64,000 nt of DNA. It comes from an uncultured Gammaproteobacteria bacterium (lineage in GTDB: Bacteria; Pseudomonadota; Gammaproteobacteria; DRJJ01). The stretch's first letter is position 1. Every line of letters begins with the position of its first letter. Made by a program: the position numbers and the translations under genes. Positions 12,091-30,061 of the stretch are shown here, one piece after another. Location: the NCBI GenBank assembly GCA_947258795.1, contig CAMYJU010000005.1, positions 1 to 64,000 on the forward strand, read 5' to 3'. Below the pieces are notes generated by a model. That model was not told the DNA's origin and made no database searches. It was given only the letters and a program-made list of their open reading frames with translations.

Positions 12091-12951
12091 TCACACCTCA
12101 AATCCAAGCTGGGTAACTTCAGAGATTTGCCTGTCGTTGAACAACCTGATATTCCTGTTTTTATATCTTCCTGTTGATGTTGGCTTTGAGAGATTAACCA
12201 GGCGACGGCATTCCTCGTCGGTTGTCTTGATATCCAGAAATTCGAGCAGCCTTTCCAGCTCAGGCTCGGGATTTTGGCAATATTCATCATAATTCAGCAA
12301 GTAGAAGTTGGAACCCAGGCTGTTACGGGCTGTCTCAATTGCCTGTTTATTACTGCGAATCCAGTATTCCAGTTGCATGTAGGGGATATTATCCTTCTCC
12401 AGATTGACACTCAAATCGTAACGATAGCCCCAGTATCTGAGCTGTTGTGTATTTGTACTAAAAGCCATATCCAGACCATGCCTGATAACATGTATGTATT
12501 TCATGTTCGGAAAGTAGTCAACCAGTTCCTGCAGAAACAAATGACTGATCGGCTCCTTCCAGCCCCAACGCGTCAGTTGATGCTTCCCTGAACACCAGTT
12601 TTGGGTAAACGCATGAATCAGCTCCTTTCTTCTACCCGACTTGATTGTCGACTTCCGGTACAGTGCTGTTATATACCTTATGATATCGGTCAGTGACCAG
12701 CCTTCCCCTGTCATACGCCTGGTAAACATGGATAGATAACGATCAAAATTCTCACGTCCTGTCGTTCTGATCCAGTCGGGCCTCTGGAATATTCGGGTAA
12801 ACAGCAGACTGTCATTCTGCTCGTCGATCTCGTCTCCCAGATAATATCCCAACTCCATCAGGGTCTGCGCTATCAGGCGTGTACCACTACCACCTAATGC
12901 ACCTATGACCACAGGATCTTTTTTTAACAATTTTGTTTCAGACATTTCCAT
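12091..12951 (-). CDS. PAPS-dependent sulfotransferase
   Basis: A 286-residue cytoplasmic sulfotransferase. The 5-prime phosphosulfate loop is GALGGSGTRLIAQTLMELGY near residue 18, and the 3-prime phosphate-binding segment is YIHVIRHGLDMAFSTN near residue 155. It would move sulfate from PAPS to a hydroxyl or amine. The gene starts 22 bases after the PKS/NRPS stop, so it is almost certainly in the same transcript and acts on the assembled product or a carrier-bound intermediate. It is separate from the sulfotransferase domain fused in the 953-aa NRPS. Start ATG at 12951, or the third codon at 12945. Confidence 0.75.
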   Translation of the reverse strand: MEMSETKLLKKDPVVIGALGGSGTRLIAQTLMELGYYLGDEIDEQNDSLLFTRIFQRPDWIRTTGRENFDRYLSMFTRRMTGEGWSLTDIIRYITALYRKSTIKSGRRKELIHAFTQNWCSGKHQLTRWGWKEPISHLFLQELVDYFPNMKYIHVIRHGLDMAFSTNTQQLRYWGYRYDLSVNLEKDNIPYMQLEYWIRSNKQAIETARNSLGSNFYLLNYDEYCQNPEPELERLLEFLDIKTTDEECRRLVNLSKPTSTGRYKNRNIRLFNDRQISEVTQLGFEV

Positions 12952-12973: not shown

Positions 12974-15900
12974 TTAGTTAAACAGGCGCTTGATCAGTTT
13001 ACTCATACTGCCTATCACTGATGATTTCCTGACATCCCTGGTTTGTACTGGTTGCTCTTCGCTCACATTCAAACCTGCCGCAATGTCGACCAACGGATAT
13101 AACACCAGATCCATCAAGGTGATATTGCTCTGCAATTCACTTCTAACCTGGTTAATAACCTGCATGGCCAACAGCGAATGCCCACCGATTTCAAAGAAAT
13201 TATCGCTTGACCTGATGCTGTCGATATATAACAGCGATTTCCATATTTCTGCCAGCTTCGTTTCCTCTGGCGACAGGGATTCAATCGCTTCTTCTGCAAT
13301 ACGGCTTTCCCCGAATGGCTCAGGCAGTTTTTTTCGGTCTATTTTCCCATTGGGTGTCTTCGGTACTTCCGCAAGTTCTATAAAAATCTGCGGTAACATG
13401 TACTTGGGCAGTGACTGGTTAAGATAGGATCGCAGGTCTGTCGAGGTCAGTGAGGCTTCATGTACAGGCACATAATAAGCCACCAGGCGACTATCTCCGG
13501 CACGTACCTCATGGATGGCCACAACACTTTCCTGTATGGCATCATGCTGATTCAGAATGGATTCGATTTCACCCAGTTCAATACGGTAACCACGGATCTT
13601 GACCTGGGAATCCAGGCGCCCATGAAATTCGATATTGCCATCCACCAGATACCTGGCTCCGTCACCCGTTCTGTAGAGTACGCTTTGTTCACTGGAAAAA
13701 GGATTCTGCACAAATCGCTCTTCGGTCAATTGCGGTCGATTCAGATAGCCTTTAGTGACACCTTCACCACCGATATACAACTCCCCGGGTACTCCCCATG
13801 GGGCCGGCTGCAGCGTCTGATCAAGGATATAGATCTGCGTATTGCCAATCGGCTTGCCAATGTGGACCGGGGCTGCAGGATCTTCTATCTGACAACAGGT
13901 AGACCATACGGTGGTCTCGGTCGGTCCATACATATTCCAGACACTGGCGGCCCTGCTACACAAATCACCAACCAGGTCGGCCGGCATCGCCTCCCCGCCA
14001 CACAGTATCTTCAGCTTGTCAGAACCCAGCCAGCCTGATCCGATCAGCATACGCCAGGTCCCCGGCGTCGCCTGCATGACGGTTGGCTGGTATTCCGCCA
14101 TCCGCTGTGACAATCGTATTCCATCCGATGACTCTTCGGCATCAACTATAAATACGGATGCGCCTGATATTAATGGTAAATACAGTTCCAGTACGGCAAT
14201 ATCAAATGACAGGGTCGTAATCGCCATCAGCCTGTCTTGATCACTCATCCCGGGTTGTTCCTGCATCGTGCACAGGAAATTAACTACACCCCGGTGTGGC
14301 ACCATGACACCCTTGGGTTTACCGGTCGAACCGGAAGTATAGATGATATAAGCCAGATCTTCCGGGGTGACATCCACTTCACCAGTCAGTTCGGAACTAC
14401 TGGCAGTTATAGCAGCCTGGTCCGTATCCAGGTTAATGAGCTGCAGGCCCTCGACGGGCAGACCTTCCAGAGACTGGCTATCAGCCACCAGATATTGCAG
14501 ACCGGAGTCCTCGACCATGAAATGCAGACGATCTTCCGGAAATTCCGGATCCAGCGGTACATAAGCGGCACCGGTTTTGAGTATTGCCAGTAAGGCAACC
14601 ACCATATCAACCGAACGTGTAACCGATAACCCGACCAGCGAGCGAACTTCAACTCCCTGCTTCTGTAAATAATGTGCCAACTGGCTGGAACGCTGTTCCA
14701 GCTCCTGATAACTGAGCTGATGACTGGTATCCGATACGGCAATGCTGTCAGCTCTGATCTTTACCTGCTCACTGACCAGATGATGCATGCATTGTTCTTT
14801 CGGATAGGCACGCCCGGTCCGGTTCCAGTCGTCCAGCAAATTGTGCCGCTCGGATTCTGTCAACAAGCCCAGCCTGGACAGGCTGCTATCCTGCTGCGCA
14901 AGAATTGATTCCAGCAAGTTGACATACAACGCCTGCCAATGCTCAATCGTCTGCTGATCAAACAGACTCTTGTTGTAGGTGCATTCCAGGTTGATATGCT
15001 CCTGATCCAGCAGCACATTGAAGAACAATTCAAATGTTTCAAAATGTCGGGGGTTTGAACCCTGGGTTATGTCGAGATTCTCGAAGTGTATACCACTGGC
15101 CAACTGGTCGATATTGAACACGACCGAGATTAACGGCAGGCGCGCAGGATCATGAGGAAACTCCAGATCGCCGACTACCGTTCCGTAGGTGCACAACTGA
15201 TGCTCAAACGACTCCAGCACTGTCGACTGGGTCGCTGTCAGCATCTCACTAAACGACTGCTTGCCATCGATCTCGATGCGCAAGGGCAGGAAATTCACAC
15301 AATGTCCGACCAGATCACGGCCACCGACCAGGGTTTGACCGGCAGCCGAAATACCGACATTAAATTCCGACTGGTAACTGAGACGATGTATCAGCACATT
15401 AAATACTGACAGCAGCAGACTGAATAAGGTTACTTTTCTACTCGATGCCAGCTGCCGTATGCGGGTCGCCAGGGTATCATCCAGGCGTTGCACTACCCTG
15501 TCTGCCTGATGGGTCTTTAATGGTGGTCGGGTATAGTCCAGCGGCAAATCAAGTGCCGGTGCCATATCAGCATGCTTGTCAACCCAGAAATGCCTGTCCA
15601 GTTCACGCTGTTGCTGCTGTTCTTCCTGGCATAACCACTGAGCATACTCCCTGAATTGCATCGGCTCTGGCGGCAGCTCACCGGTAAGCTGTGCACTGTA
15701 TAGCCGTCCGAGATCAGTTAACAGTGCGCCGGATGACCAGCCATCACAGGCGATATGATGAACCCCCAGAAACAGCACATGCGCCTGTTCAGACAATCGA
15801 TACAGACATAGCCTGTATAATGGACCATTTTCAAGGTCATAGGCTGTTTCCACATCCTTGTCAGCGTCTGCATGCAAACGTGCCTGTTGTGCCTCAGGTG

Positions 15901-18900
15901 ACAGGGTTTGCATATCAATACAGCGAACTTCCAGCTTATCAAGATGTGCACCGTAACGCGCCTTCCCTTCCTGACTGACAGTCAGACGCAAGGAGTCATG
16001 ACGGTTAATCATCAGCAGCAGGGCGTGATCCAGAATTTGTTTATCGAGCGTACCGGTCAGTTGTAATGTATTGGACAGGTTGTAGGCACACGATGCATTC
16101 TCTCCCAGGCAACAGGACAGCCAGACTTCCATTTGCCCATCGGTCAGGAACTGTTCTGCCGTCATTACAGCAGACGCCGGTATCATAGCTTCTGGCCGGG
16201 CAGTAGACGGCAGGAAACCACCCTGTTGCAGTGCTGCGACACTTTCTATAATAGCCAGTTTGACTGCTTCAAAATCCTGATCTGTATGTGCCGTTGAGAA
16301 GAACGATGAACGGCCTTCGGTAATATGGATACCCTTGTCCCGCAAATGATAATAAAGCAGGGTTGAATATTCCGGATGGCTGGTAAACTTGATATGGAAA
16401 AATGAACTGAAGGTCTCCACATGCAGCGGGGCGCCCATATTCATAAAGGCGTCATTCAGATCCTCAACAAACCGCTTCGTCCTGTTATTAAGCTGCTGTT
16501 GCAAGCCGGGACCCTGTTCACGCAAGTGCAGCAGTACCGCGCGGCAGGCAGCCAACGCCAATGGATGCCTGACAAAGGTACCTGCAAACCAGGTCACACC
16601 GGCTTCGGGTATGGAACCGTCACCGAACTGCCACATCCCCCCATCGAGGGCATCCAGATAACGATGATCTCCACTGACGATACCAATCGGCAGCCCACCA
16701 CCAACCACCTTGCCATAGGTCGCAATATCCGCCTTGACATCGAACAGGGCCTGCACCCCTCCCGGATGTGAACGAAATCCGGTGATCATTTCATCAAGCA
16801 CCAGTGCAATATCCAGCTCTCTGGTAAGCGTCCTGAGTTCTTTCAGGAAACTGACCGGCTGCGTGTCCGGGTGACGACTCTGTACCGGTTCAACCAGAAC
16901 TGCCGCAATGTCTCCGGCCTGTTCCCTGATTACCTCCAACGCGTGATTGTCGCCATATTCCAGTACCAGTACCTGTTCAACCATGTGCGGCAGAATACCT
17001 GGCGCCACCGGTATCGGACGTGCGCGATCACCCATGCTCAAACGCTTGACCAGCACCTCATCAAATATACCGTGGTAGGAGCCGGCAAAAATCACAATCT
17101 TGTCCCGTCCGGTCACGGTTCTCGCGACCCGAATCGCGGCCAGTACGGCCTCTGAACCGGTATTACAGAATGCCATACGCTCCATGCCGGTCATTTCACA
17201 GAACAGGCTGGCAGCCTCTCCGGCCAGTGGCGTTTGCGGGCCGATCTCATAGCCTTTGTGTAATTGCTCCTGAACAGCTGCACTGATAAATGCGGGTGTA
17301 TGGCCAAACAGGTTGACACCAAAACCCATGGCCATATCGATATACTCATTGCCATCGATATCCCATAGTCGGGAACCCGCAGACCGTTCTGCAACAACCG
17401 GATAGGCAATTTCTTTCCACAGCTTTCGAAAACCTGAAACAGTACGGGCGTCAGCGAGCTGTTTCCTGTTGGACTGAACCAACTCCCTGGAGGCCCTGGT
17501 CTTGCCGACGATACTTTCGATTAATGTATCCAGGTGTTTTTGTTGCTGCGCAGTCAGCCCTGAGCTGGCGCCGGTATCGATAGCCTTCCACGGCCCGGTC
17601 GTGATTTCAGGCTCATCGGTAGCCATTAACTCGCTGGCAGTGACCGCATGTTCTGATGTTGCTTCAGTCCCGGTCACAGGCTGTGCCAGCACTCCGCTGC
17701 CGGGCACCTGTTCAGCCTGGTTCTCCCTGATATAGTCTGTCAGGGCCGCCAGGTTTCCGAACTCCTCCATAACCTGTCTAAAGGTAATATTGACTGAAAA
17801 GCGTTTTTTTAATGCCAGGCTGACCTGGGTCAGCGCCAGTGAGTCGAACCCCAGTTCCAGAAAAGAAACATTGGGCCTGATCTGACCGGCTGACAGACCG
17901 CTAAGTTCAACCAGGATGTTTTTCAGCTCCTGCTCTATCGATGATTCGGTATCTGCCGATGCAGGCCCGGCCGAATCGGGCTGCTGTGTTGCATCCGAAA
18001 CCTCCGGGTATAACTGGTGGATGGTAGCCTTATGATGAGGTTTGCTTTCCCCCTCTATCCAGTAGCGCGTACGCTCGAATGCATAACCAGGGACTGAAAC
18101 ATGCTTGCGCTGTTCGTACTGGTAGTACTGGTCCCAGTCGACCTGCCCCCCTGCCGACCAGAGTTGACCGAGTGCGGATACCAGGCATGCCTGATCGTCG
18201 ATTTGCTCTTTTGGATACCGGATACTGTTGATCACGGCATGCGTGTCTTTAACCAGAGGATGCTGCCTGACAAAATTACACAAGGTCCTGCCCGGCCCCA
18301 TTTCGATAAAGCAGGCATTCTCTCTTTCCAGCAGTACCGCAAGCCCATCATAGAACCTTACGGTTTGGCGTAAGTGTTTTGACCAGTAGGCCGGATCAGT
18401 CGCCTGTTTATCGGTAATCCAGTCACCGGTCAGGTTAGATATAAACGGTATTTCAGGACGTGAAGGATTCGCAGACCTGGCCAGTTGTTCAAAGGGCTCC
18501 AGCGCAGCATCCATCATCGCGGAATGGAATGCATGTGAGGTTCGTAACTCCTGGTAACCTACCGATTGCTGTTGCAGGGTTTCCTGCAAGGCCTGCACAG
18601 ACTTGTGCGGTCCGGATACCACCGTCGCATTATTAGTATTGACGGTGGCGATCGAAATATCTACCGGCAACAGTCCAGACAGCTCATGTTCGGGCAGGGA
18701 AACCGCCAGCATACTGCCCGTGGACTGCTGCTGCATCAAACGTCCCCGTTCGGCCGCCAGCCTCAAGGCCTGCTCCAGGGTAAATACACCACTCAGACAG
18801 GCTGCCACATACTCACCGATACTGTGCCCGATCATTGCTGCAGGCTGTATACCCCAGCTCTGCCATAAACGCGACATCGCATATTCCGTTACGAACAGCG

Positions 18901-20698
18901 CGGGCTGGGTATATTGTGTCTGCTGCAATTGCTCGGCTGCCTGCTGCTCCTCGCCCGGCTGCGGATACATCAGTTGACGTATATCGGCTTCCAGTATGTC
19001 TTTCAGGAACAGCGCACAACTGTCTACCTGTTCACGGAAAACCGGTTCCGATTCGTACAGGCCACGGGCCATATTGGAATACTGTGCACCCTGACCTGAA
19101 AACATGAATATATGATCATCGCACACGGCATCCTGACGGCTTACAGCAGACCAGCTATCCTGCTGTGACAGACTGGTGTCACTCGCCTCACTGGAATTCC
19201 TGACCACCGCATAACTGCGACAGGTATAGGATTGACGATGCTGCTGCAGGGTATAGGCCACATCAGCCACTGACAGATCGGTGTTCGAACCCAGGTGTCT
19301 GCTCAGCTGTTGCTGTGCATCAGACAGCGACTGCTCGGTCCTGGCTGACAGCGGAATCAGTTGCCATGCCCTGCTGTCAGATGACGCACGGGTATCCGTC
19401 CAGCCTTCCAGTATGGCATGGAAGTTCGTACCACCCAGACCGAACGAACTGACACCGGCAAGGCGCTGTTGCTTGTCTTCCGGCCAGGAGGACATCTTGT
19501 CATTGACATAAAACGGGCTATTGTCGAAATCGATTTGCGGATTGGGACGCTTGTAATTAAGCGATGCCGGTATTTGACCATATTTCAGTGCCAGGGTGGT
19601 CTTGATCAGACCGGCGATACTGGCTCCGGCATCAAGATGACCGATATTGGTCTTGACCGAACCAATCGGGCAGTAGGCCTTCTTGTCCGTATATTCGCGG
19701 TAGGCCCTGGTCAGGGCAGCGATTTCTATCGGGTCACCAAGCGCTGTACCGGTACCATGTGCTTCGATATAACCCATATCTTCAATATTGATGTCTGCCA
19801 GTGACAGGGCATCACCAATCACGGCAGCCTGACCTTTCAGACCCGGTGCGGTAAACCCGATCTTGTCCGAACCGTCATTATTGATCGCGGTAGCGCGAAT
19901 CACTGCATGGATACTATCTCCATCAGTAATGGCGTCTTCCAGTGGTTTGAGTACGATGAAGCCCATACCACTACCCCGAACCATGCCCTTGGCATCAGCA
20001 TCAAAAGCACGACAGTATCCATCCGGTGACTGGGTTCCACCTTCCTGGTAATGGTAGCCACTTTGTAACGGCACCTGGATACGTCCACCACCAGCCAGTG
20101 CAACCTGGCAGTCCCCGGCCAGCAGACTCTGACAGGCAAGATGTACTGCAACACCGGATGAGGAACAGGCAGTCTGCACATCGATAGCAGGGCCGGTCAG
20201 ATTGAGCTTGAACGCCACACGTGTCGCAATATAGTCTTTCTCACTGCTTAACATGCTTTGATAGTCATCAAAGGCATGCAGCATTTCCGGATTGGCCGCA
20301 AACCGGTCGAGGATATAGGTATTACGGGCAACACCGCCAAACACGCCAACCTGAGCACCTTCCTGTCCGCTTACTATACCTGCGTCTTCGAGTGCCGCAC
20401 TGGCACACTCCAGGAAAATACGATGCTGAGGATCCATCAGCGCCGCTTCGCGCGGATTGTAGCCGAAGAATGATGCGTCAAAACAGTCTGCATCATCCAG
20501 CCAGGCGCCGGCCTTCACGTAATCCGGGTCACCAAGGGTTTCGATATCGATACCGGCCGCGATCAATTCATCGCGACTGAAGTGATGGATCGCAGACTGA
20601 CCTGAATGCAACAGCTCCCAGAACTGCTCAACAGAGTTAGCCCCCGGAAATCTGCATGCCATGCCGATGATGGCTATTTTGTCGGTCAAATCATCCAT
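12974..20698 (-). CDS. Hybrid PKS-NRPS: KS-AT-ACP-aminotransferase-C-A(Gly-like)-PCP
   Basis: A 2574-residue assembly-line protein. KS (about 5-430): active Cys178 in TACSSS, His314 in EAHGTGT, His354 in NIGHLDAG. AT (about 530-830): Ser626 in GHSIGEY and the HAFH motif at 722-725, typical of malonyl-CoA selection. ACP: Ser953 in ELGFDSL. Class III PLP aminotransferase (about 1060-1490): Lys1330 in ATYGKVVGGG, as in mycosubtilin and iturin synthases, where it turns a beta-keto thioester into a beta-amino acyl unit. C domain: HHIACDG at 1647-1653. A domain (about 1965-2480): deduced ten-residue code DILQLGMVWK, near the published Gly code. PCP: Ser2508 in GGHSLL. No ketoreductase, dehydratase or thioesterase is present. 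The C-terminus is a short amphipathic tail ending KLIKRLFN. It begins 23 bases after the A-PCP-sulfotransferase gene. Confidence 0.95.
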   Translation of the reverse strand: MDDLTDKIAIIGMACRFPGANSVEQFWELLHSGQSAIHHFSRDELIAAGIDIETLGDPDYVKAGAWLDDADCFDASFFGYNPREAALMDPQHRIFLECASAALEDAGIVSGQEGAQVGVFGGVARNTYILDRFAANPEMLHAFDDYQSMLSSEKDYIATRVAFKLNLTGPAIDVQTACSSSGVAVHLACQSLLAGDCQVALAGGGRIQVPLQSGYHYQEGGTQSPDGYCRAFDADAKGMVRGSGMGFIVLKPLEDAITDGDSIHAVIRATAINNDGSDKIGFTAPGLKGQAAVIGDALSLADINIEDMGYIEAHGTGTALGDPIEIAALTRAYREYTDKKAYCPIGSVKTNIGHLDAGASIAGLIKTTLALKYGQIPASLNYKRPNPQIDFDNSPFYVNDKMSSWPEDKQQRLAGVSSFGLGGTNFHAILEGWTDTRASSDSRAWQLIPLSARTEQSLSDAQQQLSRHLGSNTDLSVADVAYTLQQHRQSYTCRSYAVVRNSSEASDTSLSQQDSWSAVSRQDAVCDDHIFMFSGQGAQYSNMARGLYESEPVFREQVDSCALFLKDILEADIRQLMYPQPGEEQQAAEQLQQTQYTQPALFVTEYAMSRLWQSWGIQPAAMIGHSIGEYVAACLSGVFTLEQALRLAAERGRLMQQQSTGSMLAVSLPEHELSGLLPVDISIATVNTNNATVVSGPHKSVQALQETLQQQSVGYQELRTSHAFHSAMMDAALEPFEQLARSANPSRPEIPFISNLTGDWITDKQATDPAYWSKHLRQTVRFYDGLAVLLERENACFIEMGPGRTLCNFVRQHPLVKDTHAVINSIRYPKEQIDDQACLVSALGQLWSAGGQVDWDQYYQYEQRKHVSVPGYAFERTRYWIEGESKPHHKATIHQLYPEVSDATQQPDSAGPASADTESSIEQELKNILVELSGLSAGQIRPNVSFLELGFDSLALTQVSLALKKRFSVNITFRQVMEEFGNLAALTDYIRENQAEQVPGSGVLAQPVTGTEATSEHAVTASELMATDEPEITTGPWKAIDTGASSGLTAQQQKHLDTLIESIVGKTRASRELVQSNRKQLADARTVSGFRKLWKEIAYPVVAERSAGSRLWDIDGNEYIDMAMGFGVNLFGHTPAFISAAVQEQLHKGYEIGPQTPLAGEAASLFCEMTGMERMAFCNTGSEAVLAAIRVARTVTGRDKIVIFAGSYHGIFDEVLVKRLSMGDRARPIPVAPGILPHMVEQVLVLEYGDNHALEVIREQAGDIAAVLVEPVQSRHPDTQPVSFLKELRTLTRELDIALVLDEMITGFRSHPGGVQALFDVKADIATYGKVVGGGLPIGIVSGDHRYLDALDGGMWQFGDGSIPEAGVTWFAGTFVRHPLALAACRAVLLHLREQGPGLQQQLNNRTKRFVEDLNDAFMNMGAPLHVETFSSFFHIKFTSHPEYSTLLYYHLRDKGIHITEGRSSFFSTAHTDQDFEAVKLAIIESVAALQQGGFLPSTARPEAMIPASAVMTAEQFLTDGQMEVWLSCCLGENASCAYNLSNTLQLTGTLDKQILDHALLLMINRHDSLRLTVSQEGKARYGAHLDKLEVRCIDMQTLSPEAQQARLHADADKDVETAYDLENGPLYRLCLYRLSEQAHVLFLGVHHIACDGWSSGALLTDLGRLYSAQLTGELPPEPMQFREYAQWLCQEEQQQQRELDRHFWVDKHADMAPALDLPLDYTRPPLKTHQADRVVQRLDDTLATRIRQLASSRKVTLFSLLLSVFNVLIHRLSYQSEFNVGISAAGQTLVGGRDLVGHCVNFLPLRIEIDGKQSFSEMLTATQSTVLESFEHQLCTYGTVVGDLEFPHDPARLPLISVVFNIDQLASGIHFENLDITQGSNPRHFETFELFFNVLLDQEHINLECTYNKSLFDQQTIEHWQALYVNLLESILAQQDSSLSRLGLLTESERHNLLDDWNRTGRAYPKEQCMHHLVSEQVKIRADSIAVSDTSHQLSYQELEQRSSQLAHYLQKQGVEVRSLVGLSVTRSVDMVVALLAILKTGAAYVPLDPEFPEDRLHFMVEDSGLQYLVADSQSLEGLPVEGLQLINLDTDQAAITASSSELTGEVDVTPEDLAYIIYTSGSTGKPKGVMVPHRGVVNFLCTMQEQPGMSDQDRLMAITTLSFDIAVLELYLPLISGASVFIVDAEESSDGIRLSQRMAEYQPTVMQATPGTWRMLIGSGWLGSDKLKILCGGEAMPADLVGDLCSRAASVWNMYGPTETTVWSTCCQIEDPAAPVHIGKPIGNTQIYILDQTLQPAPWGVPGELYIGGEGVTKGYLNRPQLTEERFVQNPFSSEQSVLYRTGDGARYLVDGNIEFHGRLDSQVKIRGYRIELGEIESILNQHDAIQESVVAIHEVRAGDSRLVAYYVPVHEASLTSTDLRSYLNQSLPKYMLPQIFIELAEVPKTPNGKIDRKKLPEPFGESRIAEEAIESLSPEETKLAEIWKSLLYIDSIRSSDNFFEIGGHSLLAMQVINQVRSELQSNITLMDLVLYPLVDIAAGLNVSEEQPVQTRDVRKSSVIGSMSKLIKRLFN

Positions 20699-20721: not shown

Positions 20722-23583
20722 CTACTTGTTCTGCTTACGTTGCCGGCGGTTACTCAATGCAGATCGGCGTTTTCCGGATTTGGCTGCCATCCTGGCCTGC
20801 CCTGCCGGTTGATTATATCCCAGTCTGACAGCCAGGTCCCATGTTGGTTCGCTTAAAAAATCATCGTTTTCAACACCCTGCCAGGCCTCAGCTACCTTCG
20901 GATTAATGGCCTTGTGTGCCAGCAGGTTGGTATCCCCCATCGGGATCGATACCTTGTGCAAACCATCAACCATCTTGCCCTGTATACCATCATACGGATT
21001 AACCAGGTTTTCATGATAACCGAGCCCCAGGGTCTGACATAGCCTACCCATTTCAGCGGCAGGATCATTGAGCATGTCCTCAAAACGCGTACGAAACCAC
21101 CGGTCCTCAGGTATCGTCTCCAGAAAGTTGACGATATTTCTGTGGGTAATCAGCCACACCAGTTCACCCAGCCTCCTCGGGCTAAAGGGTTGCTCACGCA
21201 AATACAGCACCTGCTCCATGTGGTAACGAACAAATGAATTTACCATCGCATAGGGATGGCGAACCAGGTGAATATACAGGGGCTTGTCAAAATCCTGCTC
21301 GGCCTTCTCCAGCGAGCGCATATCCAGACCATAAGACGGTGATTTGTCGACCAGCATCTGCTCGCCCAGCCAGCCCTGCAACTCGGCAAAAAACGCCTGA
21401 GTACTCAGGTTCCTGTCCTCGAAGTCAGACATAATCGCGGTGGCCTGATCCGCATCGCAGGACTTGATCTCCATAATCGCCCTAATAGTGCCTTCCCGCC
21501 ACAATTTGTATTTCCCGGAATACGCCTGTTTGCGTTCCTGCAAGGTATTAAAACCCAGTAACTGCAACTCGGCCGCTGCGAACAGATCAGGATGCCCGGC
21601 CAGCATAACCCTGAGCAGGGTGGTACCTGATCTGGGTGGCGCCAGGATAAAAATAGCCGGCGGATTTTTCCTGACAGCTTGTGTTTGTATCTGCTCCGGC
21701 AACATCACAATACAGGATTCCATGCGCTCGATATCGTTATTAGTCAGCTTGTCAGATACATTACTTTCACTGCCTGCATGAGCCGCGTCGCTTGCTGTTC
21801 CTGCAAACCTTTTCTTTACCGCGTCAGTGTAGTCTCTTTCAAGAAACCGGGCATAACTGGACACGGTAGGCGATTCAAATATGGTCAACACATAGATGAA
21901 TTCGCCGAGATCTTTTTGCAACTGACCAATAATGGCTGCTGCCTGTAACGATGTACCACCCAGATCAAAGAACCGGTCATTGATACCAACCTGCTCCAGC
22001 TCCAGCTCTTCCTGCCATAAATACACCAGGTGCTTTTCAATATCCGTCGTCGGTGTAACATATGCCTGATCCAGCACCGGTCTTTCCCTGCCGGGTCTGG
22101 GCAAGGCCTTGCGATCCAGCTTCCCGCTCACGGTCAGGGGCAGGCTGTCCATCAGCATGAACACCGATGGAACCATATGTTCGGGTAGACTCTCTTCAAC
22201 AAAGGTACGAACATCAGTAAGCGAGAATTCTGCTCCGGGATTCAGTACCAGATAAGCGACCAGTTTCTGGTTACCGGGTTTATCCTCTCTGAGCAACACC
22301 ACTGCCTGCTTTATCGAAGGATGTTTTTCAAGGTGCAGCTCGATTTCCCCGAGCTCTGTTCTGATGCCGCGGATTTTTACCTGGAAGTCTATACGCCCGA
22401 GAAACTCAACCGCACCGTTATCGCGTTTACGACCGATATCACCTGTTCGATACAGTCGCTGCCCCGGTGCTGCCGGATCCTCAACAAAACGCTCGGCTGT
22501 CAGCTCCGGACGATTCAGGTAACCACGCGCCACCTGGACCCCGCCTATACAGATCTCGCCTGCCTCGCCATCCGGGAGCGGACTTAGACTGTCATCCAGA
22601 ATCAGGATACTGGTGTTTGCGACTGGCCAGCCGATCGGGACCGTTTCTTCGTGATTACCACGCACACATTCCCACCAGGTCACATCAATCGCAGCCTCGG
22701 TCGGACCGTAAAGGTTATGCAGCTGCGCATCCAGTGTCTCGAAGAAGCAGTCACGCAGATCCGGTAGTAATGCCTCACCACTACAGATGACATGACGCAG
22801 GGATCGACAACTTGTTGCCAGCCCCGGTTCGTCCAGAAACAGGCGCAGCATGGATGGAACAAAATGCACGATACTGACCGATTCCTGTTCGATCAGCTTG
22901 GACATATAGGTACTGTCTTTATGACCGTCCGGACGCGCCAGCACCATGCTGGCACCGGTCATGATCGGCCAGAAAAACTCCCAGACAGAGACATCAAAGC
23001 TGTAAGGGGTCTTCTGCAGGATTCTGTCTGATGCATCGGCCTGGAAATGATCCTGCATCCATTGCAAGCGGTTACAGATACCCTGATGGGTATTCATAAC
23101 CCCCTTGGGCATACCGGTTGAGCCCGAGGTATAGATCACATAGGCGAGATCATCCGGCTGGATATCTGGCACAGTCAGCTCTGCTGAAAAAGATATTATC
23201 GCCTGCCAGTCGCTGTCGACACTAATGAGGTTATGCCTTGATGAAGATAAATCCGGCCTCAAGCTTTCCTGGGTCAATACACAAACCGGGTCTGCATCAC
23301 CCAGCATCACTGACAGTCTTTCTTCCGGGTATTCGGTATCGAGCGGGATATAGGCTGCACCGGCCTTCAGTATCGCCAGCAAGGCGACGACCATTTCCGG
23401 GGCGCGATGCATATACAGGGCAACCAGGCTGCCCTTATCCACACCCTGCTTGCATAAATAGGCAGCCAACTGTGTGGCCCGGCGATTGAGGTCTTCGTAT
23501 GAGAGCGCTTGACCGTCATAGATAACGGCTGGGTGATCCGGTGTGCGCGCTGCCTGCTGTTCAAATAATCCGTGTAATAGCAT
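20722..23583 (-). CDS. NRPS: A(Ser-like)-PCP-sulfotransferase
   Basis: A 953-residue protein that starts directly in an adenylation domain, with no condensation domain. A domain (1-495): YTSGSTGMPKG near 151, YGPTEAA near 292; the deduced code DVWHISLIDK differs by one residue from the published Ser code. PCP: Ser545 in DLGGTSLQ. A PAPS sulfotransferase domain follows (about 643-905) with APPRSGTTLLRVMLAGHP and HLVRHPYAMVNSF, closely resembling the CurM/olefin-synthase sulfotransferases that activate a beta-hydroxyl on a carrier-bound chain. The likely reaction is O-sulfonation of carrier-bound serine. Unlike CurM there is no thioesterase after it. The protein ends in a very basic tail (SGKRRSALSNRRQRKQNK). 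A 126-base gap separates it from the upstream NRPS gene. Confidence 0.93.
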   Translation of the reverse strand: MLLHGLFEQQAARTPDHPAVIYDGQALSYEDLNRRATQLAAYLCKQGVDKGSLVALYMHRAPEMVVALLAILKAGAAYIPLDTEYPEERLSVMLGDADPVCVLTQESLRPDLSSSRHNLISVDSDWQAIISFSAELTVPDIQPDDLAYVIYTSGSTGMPKGVMNTHQGICNRLQWMQDHFQADASDRILQKTPYSFDVSVWEFFWPIMTGASMVLARPDGHKDSTYMSKLIEQESVSIVHFVPSMLRLFLDEPGLATSCRSLRHVICSGEALLPDLRDCFFETLDAQLHNLYGPTEAAIDVTWWECVRGNHEETVPIGWPVANTSILILDDSLSPLPDGEAGEICIGGVQVARGYLNRPELTAERFVEDPAAPGQRLYRTGDIGRKRDNGAVEFLGRIDFQVKIRGIRTELGEIELHLEKHPSIKQAVVLLREDKPGNQKLVAYLVLNPGAEFSLTDVRTFVEESLPEHMVPSVFMLMDSLPLTVSGKLDRKALPRPGRERPVLDQAYVTPTTDIEKHLVYLWQEELELEQVGINDRFFDLGGTSLQAAAIIGQLQKDLGEFIYVLTIFESPTVSSYARFLERDYTDAVKKRFAGTASDAAHAGSESNVSDKLTNNDIERMESCIVMLPEQIQTQAVRKNPPAIFILAPPRSGTTLLRVMLAGHPDLFAAAELQLLGFNTLQERKQAYSGKYKLWREGTIRAIMEIKSCDADQATAIMSDFEDRNLSTQAFFAELQGWLGEQMLVDKSPSYGLDMRSLEKAEQDFDKPLYIHLVRHPYAMVNSFVRYHMEQVLYLREQPFSPRRLGELVWLITHRNIVNFLETIPEDRWFRTRFEDMLNDPAAEMGRLCQTLGLGYHENLVNPYDGIQGKMVDGLHKVSIPMGDTNLLAHKAINPKVAEAWQGVENDDFLSEPTWDLAVRLGYNQPAGQARMAAKSGKRRSALSNRRQRKQNK

Positions 23584-23709: not shown

Positions 23710-26700
23710 TCAGTTATTCCTCAGTTTACCTAACCACTTGGCCAGCATGGATTTTTCCTGTTTACCGGTCACTTTTTGCTCCATCAGTTTATCGCATTCC
23801 CTGGCAACTGCTTTCAAGTCTTCCTGGTAGATCGTAACCGCACTTAGATTGACTCCAAGCGTTTCACGTATCGTGGCCAGGGCCTGCATGGCCAGGATCG
23901 AATGACCACCGATAATGATAAAATTGTCGTCACGACTGACCCCATCGACCCCGACCAGTTCAGACCAGATCGCGGCCAGTACCTGCTCGGTTTCCGTCTC
24001 AGGTGGAATTATATCCCGGGAGGCGGTATCCACGGTTAACGGGGATGGCAGACGGTTACGATCCACTTTCCGGTTCGGCGTCAGTGGAAACTCACCCAGT
24101 TCCACAAAATGTTGCGGAATCATGTGATCAGGCAGTATTTCCCGTAGCGAGTTTCTCAGGCTGGTCGCGGTAGCCTGTGTCCCGGCACGAGACCTGTAAT
24201 AGGCCACCAGTCTTGGGGCATCTCCCTGCTGGGTATAAAGACTGGTAACCGCCTGCTCAACAGACGGATCCTGTTCCAGTGCCGAATCGATCTCGCCCAG
24301 TTCTATGCGGAAACCACGCAGCTTGACCTGATGATCCATCCTGCCCATGCAGATGAGCTGGCCGCTCTCACCGAGACATCCATAGTCACCGGTACGGTAA
24401 AGCCGCTGCTTGCCGACTCCTGGAATATCAAGCTCGACAAATCGCTGCCCGGTCAATTCAGGCCGGTTCAAATAGCCTCTTACCACCCCGTCTCCGGCGA
24501 TACATATCTCGCCCCGAATACCGGCAGGAACCGGTCGTAGCCGCTGGTCCAGTATATAGATCCGGGTATTGGCAAGTGGTTTACCTACCGGTATCTGCTT
24601 CTGCTCCTGCTTTACCTGGTAACTGCTGGACCAGATGGTGGTTTCAGTTGGACCATACATGTTGATCAGGGAAGTGGTATGGACCAGCTCACGGGCCAGG
24701 TTTTCTGTCATGCTTTCTCCGCCTATCAAAACATTTTTGATGCGGGAAAAAATAGCCGATGTTTGTGCATCCGCCAGCAGCATACCGGCCATCGAGGGTG
24801 TACATTGAAAATGGGTGACCTGGTATTTATCCACCAACGCAGGTAATGACATGGAAGCCTTGCTCTGCTCAGCGACCTTTTCTGCAACCAGTTGTTTAAG
24901 CTCATTCAGGTATGGCAGGTTCTCCAGTACCACGTCGGTATTAACACCATAATCAATCAAGCAGGCTATCTCATCAACACCGGCCTGATTGACCCGGCTG
25001 ATCATATCCAGACAATCCTCAGGCGAGCCGAACAAACCACTGGTACTGAAATAACGTTCGAATGCAAATTCAAGCAGATCATCGAGATCGGCATCCGAAA
25101 TAGCTTCGAAGTATTCATCCAGTGACTCACCCGTTTCCTCTGATGTTGCCTTGAATGTCGGGAAGTTCCACGCTGCTTTCTTGACCAGGAACATGGCGCT
25201 GGCCAGATATTTTTTCATCGGCGCCCTGGCAATTTCCTTTGCCTTTTCTGTAGAAGTACTGACCAGTGTGTGCAGCATCACCACCACATGGCCCTGCCCC
25301 GGATGCCCACATTGCCTCCAGGTACTCCGGTACAGTTCCAGTTTTTCTGCCAGCTCTTCTATCGTCTGACCAAGCAGATGGGTCAATATACCCGCACCTG
25401 CTTCGGCGGCCTTGACGAATGTTTCCGGGTTGCCGGCAACAGTCGCCCATACCGGCAACTCCTTCTGCACAGGCCGTGGCAAGGTGGATACCGTTACATC
25501 CCCCTTTGGACCAGGTAGAACCAGTGTTTCACCTTTCCATAAACGACGAAGTTGCTCGAGCGATTCAAACAGGATGGTTTTGGCATTGGTAAAGTTTTCG
25601 GGTTTGATCACAAAGTCCTCGGGTTGCCAGCCCGAAGCTACTGCCATACCGACACGACCATCAGACAGGTTATCCACTACCGCCCATTCCTCTGCGACAC
25701 GCACCGGATTATGCAGTGGTAGCACACAACTACCGGCCCTGATTTTTACATTTTTTGTGGCCACCGCCAGCGCAGCACTGGTGACAGACGGATTCGGGAA
25801 CAAGCCACCAAAATCGTGGAAATGACGTTCCGGTGTCCACACAGCGGTAAATCCGTTTTCATCGCCATATTTCGCACTTTCCAGTAACAGGCGATACTTG
25901 TTTTCGTTGCCCTGATCATCCGGGACCAGGTTCCAGTAAAACAGACTGAAATCAACCGGTCTGATGGCAGGCTTACTGTCAGGAACTTCATACCTTTCGG
26001 GTTCAACATAAAGCACAACTGTGAATCCACGTGTCAGTGTCCAGAACAACTCCAGTACCGAAATATCGAAGGAAATACTGGTTACCGCCAGCCAGGTACC
26101 CGGTTCGGGATGCTCCAGCACATCATCCATACCCGAAAAGAAATTCACAACATTGGCCTGCTCGACCACCACACCTTTGGGCTGACCTGTCGAGCCCGAT
26201 GTATAGATAACATAGGCCGCATTGGATGCATCAGTATCAAGCTCGGGATTCTCACTGCTGCACTGCTCGATCTGATCCAGGTCCTTTCTGTAGTTCACCA
26301 GTTCAAAATCTGCTTTTGTATCCCCCAACAGACTGTCGTCGTCGCTGATCACCACCTTCGATCCGGAATCCTCGACCATATACTGTATCCGGTGCCCTGG
26401 ATAGGCCGGGTCCAGTGGTACGTAGGCGCCCCCTGCCTTCAGGGTTGCCAGCAAGGCGATCATCATCTCAGTAGAGCGTTTCATATGTATGCCCACCAGC
26501 TGTTCCGGACCGACACCCTTGCCGATCAGATAGTGGGCCAGGCGATTGGCGCGCCTGTTTAGCTCCGCATAACTCAGTTCATCCTGGCCACACACCAACG
26601 CCAGCTGGTCAGGCGTTTTGGCTACCTGCCCGGCAAACAATTGTTGAATACCTTGCCTGTAGTCAACCTGCTTGCCTGTTGCATTCCAGTCAATCAGCAG

Positions 26701-28371
26701 GGACTGGATATCTTTCTGATCCAGCAGATTGACATCACATAGCAGCCTGTCCCGCCTGGGTAAATCCGAAACCAGCTGCCGAAATTGCTGCTGCATGATC
26801 TCGATCTGCCGGGCAGTATGCACATCAGCATGATAAAACCATTCCAGCCCGCTGAAATCATGCGCCGGGCGTATATACAATGCGGCAGATACTGCCGGTA
26901 TTTCATCCTGACCCGGTTCACCGGGGACAGCCAGAACAACCGGGAAAAGCCTGTCATCGGTATAGTAAGGTAAACTCCTGAGCTCAGGAGTACGTAAAGG
27001 CAAATCCGAGGCGAAGACGAGGTGCGTCTGAACTTCCCGGTACCCTGCCTCAATCATCCGGCAATGATCAGCAAACCCGGTTTCTGAATTAACATCATGG
27101 ATGAACGGGATACAAGTCTGATACAGATTGTGGTTCTTGCTTTCATGCAGCGCACTTACATCCAACACAAGGCCTGTGCTTTCATTACCGGTAAGACGGT
27201 ATAGATAGGCAAGCACAGCCGCCAGGAATGCAGGCATCATATCCAGACATTGCCTACCCGACAGTCCGGACAGTTCAGGCAGGTCCTGATGCCCTGCCCG
27301 GATCAGTGACTTGTTATCGACTGCCTGGCTGTCTCGTACATACGGCAGCGTTGTAAGCTGAAGCTCAGTCAGGTGCCTGATCCAAAAGGCCTCTTGCAAA
27401 CAGAAGTCTCTCCTGGTCTGCAACCCCTTCTCCAGAAGGGCCTCCTGGCCGGTATCCAGGCTATCACCAATATTCACGCCCGCGGCAGATAAAAATGCCC
27501 CTGGCTTTAACTCGCGAACTGACTGATCTGGCAAAACTGACAGACTGATATCCCTGGTCGCCGTACTGAACACAATGTTGCTGTCTGAATACGATACCAG
27601 CGTACCGGCAGGCATATTCGAAGATTGCTCGAGTACATCGGCCTGCCTGACAATCAATTGCCGATCATTGACCGGCAGTCGGGCAAGCCCGACCGGGTTG
27701 TAATAAGGCCCAAATTCCAGGGCACGTGTCAGTGCAGATATGGCTTCGGCCGGGCCGGACAGATCGATACCCAGTGACATTTCCTTGCAGGGAGGGCAAT
27801 AGCTAGCCTCATCCAATTGGTGCGCAACCGGTGATATTTTATCATTTTCGATATCATTCAGCAGTTCATTGAAGCAAGCCAGCCCCTGTTCAAGGCATTT
27901 GATATTCAGGCTGAAGGCGGTTTCATCAGTCGCAATCGGAAAGGTGTGTTGCTTGATTATATCGCCCGCATCTGCCTGCTCTGTCATCTGATGCCAGGTG
28001 ACACCATACTCAGCTTCCTGGTTCAGGATTGCCCAGACAGGTGCATTAATACCTGCATACCTTGGTAAAGGGCCATCATGAAAATTAATGGCCATACGAG
28101 CCGGTAACTTCAGGACCTCTGCCGGTATGATTTTCAGATTGACGATACTGAATAGATAATCGAATTGATACTTGTCCAGGTCTGCATAAGAACTACTTGT
28201 ATGTTCACGGTATTCCAGGGAATGCTCATTACACCAGGCTGCAACATCCGGGTCACTGGAGATGACCAGGCTGATGGTATGATCACGATCGAGCAGCTGT
28301 TGACCACACTCAATCAATAGTGACTGCTGACCAATTAATACGCAATTGAATTGTTTGCTGCTCGCGGACAT
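23710..28371 (-). CDS. NRPS: formyltransferase - half C domain - A(Gly-like) with inserted luciferase-like monooxygenase - PCP
   Basis: A 1553-residue protein. Residues 8-190 are a formyltransferase catalytic domain with INFHDGPLPRYAGINAP near 95, and 205-305 look like its C-terminal OB-fold domain. Residues 325-555 resemble only the C-terminal half of a condensation domain; no HHxxxDG is present. The adenylation domain spans 575-1440: YTSGSTGQPKG near 723 and SFDISVLELFW (A4) near 767, then a MupA/Atu3671-type flavin monooxygenase (about 798-1165), then the domain resumes at YQVTHFQCTPSMA and MYGPTETTIW (A5). The code DILQLGMIWK is Gly-like. PCP: Ser1492 region, IGGHSIL. An insertion at this site is known in MtaG and MelG, where it oxidises glycine. 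The tail ends KWLGKLRNN. Confidence 0.93.
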   Translation of the reverse strand: MSASSKQFNCVLIGQQSLLIECGQQLLDRDHTISLVISSDPDVAAWCNEHSLEYREHTSSSYADLDKYQFDYLFSIVNLKIIPAEVLKLPARMAINFHDGPLPRYAGINAPVWAILNQEAEYGVTWHQMTEQADAGDIIKQHTFPIATDETAFSLNIKCLEQGLACFNELLNDIENDKISPVAHQLDEASYCPPCKEMSLGIDLSGPAEAISALTRALEFGPYYNPVGLARLPVNDRQLIVRQADVLEQSSNMPAGTLVSYSDSNIVFSTATRDISLSVLPDQSVRELKPGAFLSAAGVNIGDSLDTGQEALLEKGLQTRRDFCLQEAFWIRHLTELQLTTLPYVRDSQAVDNKSLIRAGHQDLPELSGLSGRQCLDMMPAFLAAVLAYLYRLTGNESTGLVLDVSALHESKNHNLYQTCIPFIHDVNSETGFADHCRMIEAGYREVQTHLVFASDLPLRTPELRSLPYYTDDRLFPVVLAVPGEPGQDEIPAVSAALYIRPAHDFSGLEWFYHADVHTARQIEIMQQQFRQLVSDLPRRDRLLCDVNLLDQKDIQSLLIDWNATGKQVDYRQGIQQLFAGQVAKTPDQLALVCGQDELSYAELNRRANRLAHYLIGKGVGPEQLVGIHMKRSTEMMIALLATLKAGGAYVPLDPAYPGHRIQYMVEDSGSKVVISDDDSLLGDTKADFELVNYRKDLDQIEQCSSENPELDTDASNAAYVIYTSGSTGQPKGVVVEQANVVNFFSGMDDVLEHPEPGTWLAVTSISFDISVLELFWTLTRGFTVVLYVEPERYEVPDSKPAIRPVDFSLFYWNLVPDDQGNENKYRLLLESAKYGDENGFTAVWTPERHFHDFGGLFPNPSVTSAALAVATKNVKIRAGSCVLPLHNPVRVAEEWAVVDNLSDGRVGMAVASGWQPEDFVIKPENFTNAKTILFESLEQLRRLWKGETLVLPGPKGDVTVSTLPRPVQKELPVWATVAGNPETFVKAAEAGAGILTHLLGQTIEELAEKLELYRSTWRQCGHPGQGHVVVMLHTLVSTSTEKAKEIARAPMKKYLASAMFLVKKAAWNFPTFKATSEETGESLDEYFEAISDADLDDLLEFAFERYFSTSGLFGSPEDCLDMISRVNQAGVDEIACLIDYGVNTDVVLENLPYLNELKQLVAEKVAEQSKASMSLPALVDKYQVTHFQCTPSMAGMLLADAQTSAIFSRIKNVLIGGESMTENLARELVHTTSLINMYGPTETTIWSSSYQVKQEQKQIPVGKPLANTRIYILDQRLRPVPAGIRGEICIAGDGVVRGYLNRPELTGQRFVELDIPGVGKQRLYRTGDYGCLGESGQLICMGRMDHQVKLRGFRIELGEIDSALEQDPSVEQAVTSLYTQQGDAPRLVAYYRSRAGTQATATSLRNSLREILPDHMIPQHFVELGEFPLTPNRKVDRNRLPSPLTVDTASRDIIPPETETEQVLAAIWSELVGVDGVSRDDNFIIIGGHSILAMQALATIRETLGVNLSAVTIYQEDLKAVARECDKLMEQKVTGKQEKSMLAKWLGKLRNN

Positions 28372-28386
28372 CGTTGTTACCCGTGA

Positions 28387-29277
28387 TTAGCGAACGTCAT
28401 GTTCTAAACGCTGTTGTCCATATGAGTTCTCCAGCCACTGCCTGATACGGGCCGTCAATAACTCGCGTTGTGATAAAAAAGTATAGGTGTGATCCGACAA
28501 CCTGTACAACTCAACATCAAGCAAATCCTCAAAATCCAGTGTAGGGAAACTGTCCCGAATCTGCCCCGGATAATTGATCATCCATAATTCCGAAGCCGTA
28601 AACAGAAACAGCATATGGACCTTGCGACTGATCAGTTCAGCATAATCCTTTATGGCTACATTTTTGTCCGGCAATTTCCAGAAATAACTGTCATCTGCTT
28701 CCGGACCACTTATCACCTGTTTTCGTGGTTTCAGTTTTCTTAGCCACTTTTTGATAAAGTTCTTCCATTTTCCGGCAATAAAAAGTTTACCACTGACTTT
28801 TTTCACCTTCTCCATCAGCTTGAGAAAATAGGTGTGACGGGTTGGATAGGCATACCCGCCCATAAACACACACCCGGTAACACGCTCATCGGCCACTGCG
28901 GCACGATGCGCATTGTCGGCACCGGTACAAAGCCCGATCAGTATGAATTTTTCCGATCCTTTCTGCTTCCCGAGAAAATCCATTGCCTCCTTGATCTCGC
29001 CAACAGCTCGTTCCTGATAACTCGGGTTGGCTTTTCTTGTCTGACTGTCACCGATGGCAGACAGATCAAACCTGAGTACCGTATAACCCTGGTCAGCTAT
29101 GTCCCTGGCCATTTCCACAGCCAGCCTGTGCGGGCCAACATGATGAATCAGGCCGGAATTAAGGATAATGACCGTAGGCAAACCCTGCTTTTGCTGACTG
29201 GCTTCCGGTTCAGTGACTACCCCAACCAGTGAATTTCCCATGCCGAATGTATAGACCTTTTCCACATCAGCCCCCAT
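28387..29277 (-). CDS. Alpha/beta hydrolase with Cys at the nucleophile elbow
   Basis: A 296-residue alpha/beta hydrolase-fold protein. The oxyanion-side motif is NSGLIHHVGPHRL near residue 41, and the nucleophile elbow reads LIGLCTGADNA, placing Cys117 where Ser normally sits. A candidate catalytic His lies in LSDHTYTF near the C-terminus. Cys-type thioesterases are known in some NRPS systems, so this free enzyme is a candidate for product release or editing, given that no assembly-line protein has a thioesterase domain. Paired hydrolases of this size also accompany exosortase-A loci. The frame is open to a TTG at 29295, but ATG 29277 is preferred; it overlaps the preceding hydrolase by 11 bases. 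The NRPS start follows after 15 bases. Confidence 0.8.
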   Translation of the reverse strand: MGADVEKVYTFGMGNSLVGVVTEPEASQQKQGLPTVIILNSGLIHHVGPHRLAVEMARDIADQGYTVLRFDLSAIGDSQTRKANPSYQERAVGEIKEAMDFLGKQKGSEKFILIGLCTGADNAHRAAVADERVTGCVFMGGYAYPTRHTYFLKLMEKVKKVSGKLFIAGKWKNFIKKWLRKLKPRKQVISGPEADDSYFWKLPDKNVAIKDYAELISRKVHMLFLFTASELWMINYPGQIRDSFPTLDFEDLLDVELYRLSDHTYTFLSQRELLTARIRQWLENSYGQQRLEHDVR

Positions 29278-30061
29278 CAGCAAGAAATGTTGCAATACTT
29301 TGTAACAATACCGGAGATATCAGTGCCAGCTTCAGTGATTCGACACCATGCCAGACATCGTCATTCGGGACATAGTTACAGACTACTGGCAGATTCTTTT
29401 GTTGCATATTTTCCAGCAGGCTCTTGTAAACAGGCTTTTCTTCCGTAATAGTCAAACTGATGCTGCTAGCCTGCATGATTACGTTGTTCAGCTTCACACC
29501 CGATATGGATTCAAGTACCGCATCCGGAAAGTGAAACCCGAAGAACTCGTTGCCTGTATGAGGCATTTCCGTGATAGAGTGATTGATTCGGTCTCTATGC
29601 TGTTCCAGCAATGCCTGCTCCATATCCATCATATCCTGCACATAGGCCTCGCCATCAGTCACCGGATCCCAAAGTACCAGCTTGTTCAGCCTGGTTTCTG
29701 ATGATGCCAGTGCCGCCAGTGCGGCCCCGAAGCGCACCCCGATGACCGACAGCCGGGAAACAGCAGACATATCCTTTAACTCGGTAAGTGCGGTCTTGAT
29801 ATCCTGCAGCCACTGACTAACATCCCCTTCATCGGTCCGGCCTGCTGAGTTTCCGGATCCATAGTAATCAAACCGCAGCACATGGAATCCAAGGCTGGTC
29901 AATCTGCCGGTTAACTGGGTCAGCACGCGATGAGTACGGATATACTCCTCACCGGTTGGGTAACAGATCAGCACCGCTTCATCACGGTATTGTTGTGCGG
30001 CAGGTGGATGGTATACGCCGTAAAGCTGCTTATTGGTATCACCAAAAAAAAACGGATTCAT
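29267..30061 (-). CDS. Alpha/beta hydrolase-fold protein with Arg at the nucleophile elbow
   Basis: A 264-residue alpha/beta hydrolase-fold protein, first gene of the natural-product operon. The core strand and oxyanion region LICYPTGEEYIRTHR and the following LRFDYYGSGNSAG are well kept, but the elbow reads SVIGVRFGAALAA, so Arg110 occupies the nucleophile position. It may be non-catalytic, act as a partner of the Cys-elbow paralogue that overlaps its 3-prime end, or use another residue. The third to sixth codons form a run of nine T on the coding strand (FFF), where slippage could occur. A 12-base palindrome lies just upstream of its start, and a purine-rich GGGGAG serves as ribosome-binding site. 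Confidence 0.75.
   Translation of the reverse strand: MNPFFFGDTNKQLYGVYHPPAAQQYRDEAVLICYPTGEEYIRTHRVLTQLTGRLTSLGFHVLRFDYYGSGNSAGRTDEGDVSQWLQDIKTALTELKDMSAVSRLSVIGVRFGAALAALASSETRLNKLVLWDPVTDGEAYVQDMMDMEQALLEQHRDRINHSITEMPHTGNEFFGFHFPDAVLESISGVKLNNVIMQASSISLTITEEKPVYKSLLENMQQKNLPVVCNYVPNDDVWHGVESLKLALISPVLLQSIATFLADGG

Follow-up and report, generated by a model that had tools for sequence, protein, structure and literature searches.

A stretch of 64,000 nucleotides (the window), positions 1 to 64,000 of contig CAMYJU010000005.1 in the assembly GCA_947258795.1 of an uncultured gammaproteobacterium (GTDB lineage DRJJ01), encodes a protein that combines an adenylation (A) domain, a peptidyl carrier protein (PCP) domain and a sulfotransferase (ST) domain. 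On the same strand, 23 bases downstream of this A-PCP-ST loading protein, a second gene encodes a large protein that begins with a ketosynthase (KS) and continues with acyltransferase (AT), acyl carrier protein (ACP), aminotransferase (AmT), condensation (C), A and PCP domains. The two proteins and the domains of the first are:

20722..23583, minus strand: A(Ser)-PCP-ST loading protein, 953 aa (single open reading frame with ATG start, Pfam domains, A-domain code)
22120..23565, minus strand: adenylation domain, residues 7-488, code DVWHISLID (Pfam and motif alignment)
21841..22020, minus strand: peptidyl carrier domain, residues 522-581, motif DLGGTS (Pfam and motif)
20809..21660, minus strand: CurM-type sulfotransferase domain, residues 642-925 (Pfam, PDB match, conserved columns, model)
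12974..20698, minus strand: KS-AT-ACP-AmT-C-A(Gly)-PCP protein, 2574 aa (domains, code DILQLGMVW, active-site motifs, conserved partner)

In the loading protein, Pfam recognised AMP-binding at residues 7-356 (E 4e-99), AMP-binding_C at 413-488, PP-binding at 522-581 and Sulfotransfer_3 at 642-857 (E 1.5e-27), matches too strong to be due to chance. The serine motif of the PCP, DLGGTS, was found, and the protein also contains the motif APPRSGTTLLRVMLAGHP. Pfam detected no C domain ahead of the A domain, and the ST is not followed by a thioesterase (TE), since the reading frame stops 28 residues past this domain and the next gene begins with the KS. Both ends of the protein had been described in the same way in a preliminary description of this DNA made from the sequence alone. 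A-domain codes were read by aligning motifs, with the code positions of GrsA as guide. The code of the window protein, for which the preliminary description had given the same reading, agrees at 8/9 positions with what we take to be the serine code. The A domains of two related loci, L024 (DVWHISLVD) and L051 (DVWHISLID), are 57% identical to it. By its code, this is predicted to be a serine-activating domain; a glyceric-acid loading domain of the cyanopeptolin type was not found, its place being occupied by this amino-acid A domain.

The closest PDB sequences to the ST domain were the ST of CurM (4gbm, E 1.1e-61) and that of a Synechococcus olefin synthase (OLS; 4gox, E 5.8e-61), followed by tyrosylprotein sulfotransferases at E of at least 5e-4. 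An AlphaFold2 model, built on an alignment of 18 sequences (pLDDT 85.5), superposed on 4gbm with a Z score of 36.2 (root-mean-square deviation 1.8 Å over 280 residues) and on 4gox with a Z score of 35.9 (1.5 over 269 residues), against 20.2 for TPST1 and about 14 for heparan-type enzymes. We rejected a carbohydrate sulfotransferase, the grouping that the preliminary description had set against its own CurM/OLS assignment: none occurred among the 9 PDB sequences matched up to E 1, and the Z scores, 36 against about 14, agree. The domain is 39% identical to the CurM ST and retains 44 of 45 near-invariant columns (those at least 93% conserved across 89 ST rows), with the replacement of F by L at residue 887 as the lone departure. 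Taken together, sequence and model indicate that it is a CurM/OLS-type carrier-borne domain with a conserved core, including the loop for the donor 3'-phosphoadenosine-5'-phosphosulfate (PAPS). It shares with the CurM and OLS enzymes the fold, the PAPS-loop motif and the place after a carrier. However, the substrate of those enzymes is the beta-hydroxyl of a polyketide, and a decarboxylating TE comes next, whereas in the window a Ser A domain precedes the ST and a KS comes after it.

A scan of an 84,980-species genome collection, using an alignment of four STs and two peptide patterns, yielded 174 related loci, 80 of which were kept (several end at contig ends). They comprised CurM/OLS-type polyketide synthase (PKS) termini, PCP-ST-C modules inside or starting peptide synthetases, a few ST-TE ends and ST-only frames without any further recognised domain. 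The succession of A-PCP-ST and KS-AT-ACP-AmT-C-A-PCP occurred in nine loci from six phyla: the window, L024 (a Trueperaceae metagenome-assembled genome, MAG), L025 (Bacteroidota), L026, L038 and L040 (Saprospiraceae/Saprospirales), L030 (Gemmatimonadetes), L035 (Pedosphaera) and L051 (Anaerolineae). One polypeptide holds the complete series in L025, L038, L040 and L026 (in the last, the A domain is lost at a contig end and PCP-ST-KS is still in one chain), while in L024, L030, L035, L051 and the window a separate KS protein comes directly after A-PCP-ST. In a maximum likelihood tree of 89 ST rows plus one outgroup, from which ST matches of less than 200 profile positions or 230 residues were left out, the nine loading STs, labelled by architecture ahead of the tree, formed one clade (support 100/98). 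Nineteen of the 20 PKS-TE rows, all except L079, fell inside a separate PKS clade of 21 rows (100/100); deep branching is less clear, with 30 of the 87 inner branches open. The kinship with CurM-type STs claimed in the preliminary description holds for the family as a whole, within which the loading STs and the CurM/OLS STs are separate clades. A decarboxylating terminator of the CurM type (ACP-ST-TE) was rejected, as the window ST lies outside the PKS-terminator clade and has no TE after it. The KS domains of the nine loci likewise formed one clade (FastTree support 1.0) among 48 KS rows, drawn only from the scanned loci at hand, apart from the KS domains of two other AmT modules (L047, L080). 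Since the ST and KS clades agree, the ST-KS pair is inherited as a unit, and the two domains are not neighbours by chance.

These comparisons point to A-PCP-ST-KS as a real, apparently intact and conserved form of carrier-borne sulfation that has moved to chain initiation, and the KS of the 12974..20698 protein most likely takes its starter unit from the loading protein. The partner expected in trans in the preliminary description thus exists as a separate protein, although it is a KS and not a C domain or thioesterase. The same description had considered a decarboxylative elimination giving an N-vinyl amide; with a trans thioesterase, such an elimination could yield this amide or an enamine. 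This would follow the logic described for CurM (PMC6274090), and two alpha/beta hydrolases are indeed encoded nearby, but we consider it highly improbable for this gene: a KS is next in all nine loci of the clade, the window included, four of them with everything in one chain, the window protein has no TE, and the Ser is not first acylated, as there is no C domain. Because a KS follows or is fused to A-PCP-ST, the carboxyl carbon of Ser would be needed for a C-C bond.

The domains of the KS protein suggest what happens to the starter. Its AT carries a HAFH motif, which we take to be a sign of malonyl specificity, its AmT is a class III aminotransferase resembling glutamate-1-semialdehyde aminomutase, its C domain has the motif HHIACDG preceded by Val, and its A-domain code, DILQLGMVW, is presumably a Gly code; the A domain of the corresponding module also has a Gly code in L024 and L030. 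Domain order and the aminomutase-like AmT recall the KS-AT-ACP-AmT-C-A-PCP modules of the McyE/iturin type; in these, by contrast, the acyl chains accepted by the KS are different, and an aminoacyl carrier with an ST is not known to precede it. We propose, with a probability of about 0.5, that the window protein is a hybrid loading module, part nonribosomal peptide synthetase (NRPS) and part PKS, on which Ser is sulfated in cis before being extended, transaminated and joined to Gly. The parts of this scheme visible in the DNA are the Ser-type A domain, the carrier, the intact CurM-type ST, the following KS-AT-ACP-AmT-C-A(Gly)-PCP and the conservation of the pair across phyla. The A domain would load L-Ser onto the carrier, and the ST would then sulfate its beta-hydroxyl with PAPS as donor. 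The KS of the next protein would accept the O-sulfoseryl thioester and extend it with malonyl, the class III aminotransferase would convert the beta-keto group to an amine, and the C domain would couple the 3,4-diamino-5-sulfooxypentanoyl unit to Gly. Release would depend on a trans partner, perhaps one of the two alpha/beta hydrolases, and the product probably has its use in, or is attached to, the exopolysaccharide of the surrounding genes, which is the weakest step.

The specificity of A domains next to STs is consistent with a hydroxylated substrate. Directly before PCP-ST, 12/40 codes were Ser and 6/40 Thr (together 18/40), against 7/80 in the other A domains of the same loci (2 more, with gaps, were left out). 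This excess (odds ratio 8.5, Fisher p 1e-5) suggests that the ST goes with beta-hydroxy amino acids; the counts are not independent by descent (L070 and L076 share one genome), and the codes of L053 and L142, both among the 40 and scored as other, look misaligned. Among the nine loading modules, the code is Ser in the window, L024 and L051 and Thr in L035, four are unassigned, and the A domain of L026 is cut. The scan also revealed many PCP-ST-C modules with Ser or Thr codes in peptide synthetases, so product predictions may miss sulfated or dehydrated residues.

Several observations weigh against the sulfated-serine loading module. Of the A codes before PCP-ST, 22/40 are neither Ser nor Thr, and the same is true for 4/8 readable loading modules (DVLMNSLVN in L025, L038 and L040; DVTHLGLVA in L030), which may need a hydroxylated residue or another reading. 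The ST gene was not found in the sister species G001 (81% complete). An O-sulfoseryl thioester could eliminate spontaneously, and family scans of the window gene run detected no dehydratase, lyase or TE, which bears on the fate of the sulfate. Finally, there is no visible source of PAPS: no adenosine-5'-phosphosulfate (APS) kinase was found above cut-off in the window's own genome (97.3% complete), where the best match, at 21.9 bits, was a 524-aa protein that looks phosphotransferase/ATPase-like by eye, and neither CysD nor CysH was found above cut-off. Taken at face value, this would mean that the ST merely rides along in a Ser loading module, with no sulfation for want of PAPS. We regard such inactivity as improbable, since the near-invariant columns are almost all retained, the genome has an ATP sulfurylase match (a 417-aa frame) as well as further sulfotransferase genes, and the sister species G001 matches both ATP sulfurylase and the APS kinase part. 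Strong APS kinases were found in 8/8 of the other loading-clade genomes (best match 194-241 bits); in that of L030 it belongs to a frame of 594 aa, on the contig of the ST and some 30 kb away from it, in which an ATP sulfurylase can also be made out by eye. Given the several sulfotransferase genes of the window's genome, we think that the missing APS kinase is more likely an assembly gap than a real absence, although it still counts against the proposed sulfation.

Whether the sulfate stays is a separate matter. By analogy with the glyceric-acid modules of cyanopeptolin synthetases, we lean slightly towards its retention in the product over its expulsion as in CurM, because the C domains found after STs look ordinary and the gene run contains no TE or lyase. 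In other synthetases, 35 of 41 C domains after STs have a recognisable HHxxxDG motif. Nocardicin-type C domains have an extra His (HHHxxxDG), which was absent from all 35 readable ones (0/35). This ordinary appearance mildly favours a sulfate that stays, and on the same ground we rejected the idea that a C domain behind an ST closes a beta-lactam as in nocardicin.

Alternatively, the sulfate might be a leaving group, lost either by beta-elimination, which would leave a dehydroalanyl unit, or when a neighbouring amine attacks and forms an aziridine, azetidine or lactam, so that the line would start with a reactive or cyclic unit. A seryl thioester with a beta-sulfate is prone to elimination, and after extension by the KS the amines at C3 and C4 would, from the domain order, adjoin the sulfated C5. 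Sulfate can serve as a leaving group in aziridine formation, for which we found no paper in the open-licence PubMed Central literature. CurM is reported to use this type of ST to make a leaving group that is lost in TE-coupled decarboxylation, and the same sulfate loss is proposed for HlaB (PMC6274090). Nevertheless, we think this alternative less likely for the window: TE, dehydratase and lyase are missing from the gene run, C domains after STs elsewhere look ordinary, and the window ST is outside the CurM clade. A more far-reaching version, in which seryl and threonyl thioesters are O-sulfated in cis and the sulfate leaves by intramolecular displacement after extension and transamination, would yield a diamino acid that is strained or cyclic, such as an aziridine, azetidine or lactam; in this organism it would be coupled to Gly and either incorporated into the exopolysaccharide or released together with it. 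This would be a widespread and undescribed initiation logic, but we hold it to be unlikely.

Among the closest known systems, haliamide HlaB has, as here, a CurM-type ST in a hybrid PKS-NRPS, but in a terminal position, with a TE and with a terminal alkene as proposed outcome (PMC6274090). Cyanopeptolins can bear sulfated glyceric acid, and the synthetase from Planktothrix combines a domain for glyceric acid with an ST domain (PMC2533009, PMC6070996). That oci synthetase shares with the window a hydroxylated starter and the presence of an ST among its starter domains (PMC2533009); unlike the window, it uses glyceric acid and no A-activated amino acid, and a C domain rather than a KS is next. 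SulN of sulfazecin biosynthesis also carries out PAPS-dependent sulfonation of a carrier-bound substrate, but as a separate trans enzyme targeting a nitrogen of a tripeptide (PMC11298585). We found no description of an A-PCP-ST loading module before a KS among the titles and abstract starts listed in searches of the open-licence PubMed Central literature, and the terms 'sulfo' and 'sulfat' are absent from the main text of a 2023 review on dehydroamino acids (PMC10880069). A lead towards the siderophore fabrubactin came to nothing. CurM-type STs are known from chain release, whereas here one stands at chain start, on an amino acid to be extended by a KS. A-PCP-ST-KS would offer a way to place a sulfate, or a built-in leaving group, in a starter unit, and serine together with this single 953-aa protein would allow a direct test of what sulfation does for assembly lines.

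The remaining genes around the two proteins include a second loading-type protein upstream and possible release enzymes:

23710..28371, minus strand: formyltransferase, partial C, A(Gly) in which a luciferase-like monooxygenase (TIGR04020) is embedded, PCP (domains, code DILQLGMIW)
28387..29295, minus strand: alpha/beta hydrolase with similarity to exosortase-A hydrolase 1 (below cut-off; homologue after the NRPS in L030)
29267..30061, minus strand: alpha/beta hydrolase with similarity to exosortase-A hydrolase 2 (below cut-off; homologue after the NRPS in L030)
12091..12951, minus strand: stand-alone sulfotransferase (Pfam)
11116..11982, minus strand: 288-aa protein without family match, last gene of the run (family scans)
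52112-53041, minus strand: third sulfotransferase of the window, among polysaccharide genes

The two hydrolases scored below the thresholds of the exosortase-A hydrolase families TIGR03100 and TIGR03101 (67.8 versus 168.45 and 103.9 versus 202.75 bits); the first of them (28387..29295) is a possible release enzyme. A molybdenum-hydroxylase-type pair (iron-sulfur and molybdopterin subunits) lies at 8462-11078 on the plus strand, between the assembly-line genes and an ACP-ligase pair.

The presence of two loading-type proteins before one KS module raises another possibility, that the formyltransferase protein, loaded with Gly (again taking its code as presumably Gly), primes the KS, and that the sulfated Ser has another destination, perhaps the polysaccharide. 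In other loci, the formyltransferase protein is itself accompanied by a PKS. We nonetheless give this arrangement little credence, because each of the 8 other loci of the clade has A-PCP-ST either in one chain with the KS or immediately ahead of it, no formyltransferase protein was found within the 10 kb covered at any of them, and KS and ST clades agree. Relatives of the formyltransferase-A-monooxygenase protein, about 40% identical, occur on alphaproteobacterial plasmids, with 7 of 29 matching records covering at least 80% of the protein. A KS-AT-KR-PCP(-TE) type protein (KR, ketoreductase) lies beside the relative in 6/6 loci read (L139, L145-L149), and polysaccharide or exosortase genes lie near it in the 4/4 that are annotated (L139, L145, L147, L149), the records of L146 and L148 having no annotation around it. 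These polysaccharide-linked PKS loci suggest that the window may combine two polysaccharide-linked assembly units.

The rest of the window locus is largely devoted to polysaccharide synthesis, with glycosyltransferases, UDP-sugar enzymes and a polysaccharide-synthesis membrane protein, together with amidotransferases of the XrtA type (below cut-off), the ACP-ligase pair and an O-antigen-ligase-like protein; an exosortase was found on another contig of the same genome. The genes purA and hisZ, which lie at the end of the window, suggest a gammaproteobacterial origin. Similar surroundings were seen in two other loading-clade loci: L024 lies near a UDP-glucose dehydrogenase and an AAA_31 protein, and L030 has a ligase resembling TIGR03097 (below cut-off) and glycosyltransferases akin to those of the window around it, with homologues of both window hydrolases after its NRPS. 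In the window's own genome, contigs C3 and C29 carry more NRPS condensation domains, and a PF00685 sulfotransferase on C29 is close to one of them.

STs of this kind are rare in the window's class, with a match at E ≤ 1e-30 in 6/369 genomes, its own included; where they could be read, the other five have C-A-PCP-ST-C synthetases, PKS-ST-TE or carrier-ST proteins. The cyanobacterial PCP-ST-C modules (L027, L029, L031, L032, L036, L037, L039, L043, L045, L048, L049) shared 46-49% identity with the ST of the window, as measured in the scan, compared with 39% for the CurM ST. All of these except L027 have proteins that start with PCP-ST-C; in L029, the single one checked, an FkbM-type methyltransferase stands ahead of the carrier, reminiscent of cyanopeptolin glyceric-acid modules. 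Within the window's class, L140 and L141 encode A(Thr)-PCP-ST-C-A(Gly)-PCP-TE, as does L033 (a Thiotrichaceae MAG) with an extra C match. Another Thiotrichaceae MAG encodes C-A(Ser)-PCP-ST-TE (L067:2-4975), a layout that fits N-vinyl amide formation by CurM logic. Plasmid pRvVAT039a of Agrobacterium vitis encodes A-PCP-ST-TE (L004:18051-21698), whose code, DAEVVGAVA, gave no amino acid, near cysN, cysD, a diaminobutyrate transaminase and a methyltransferase.

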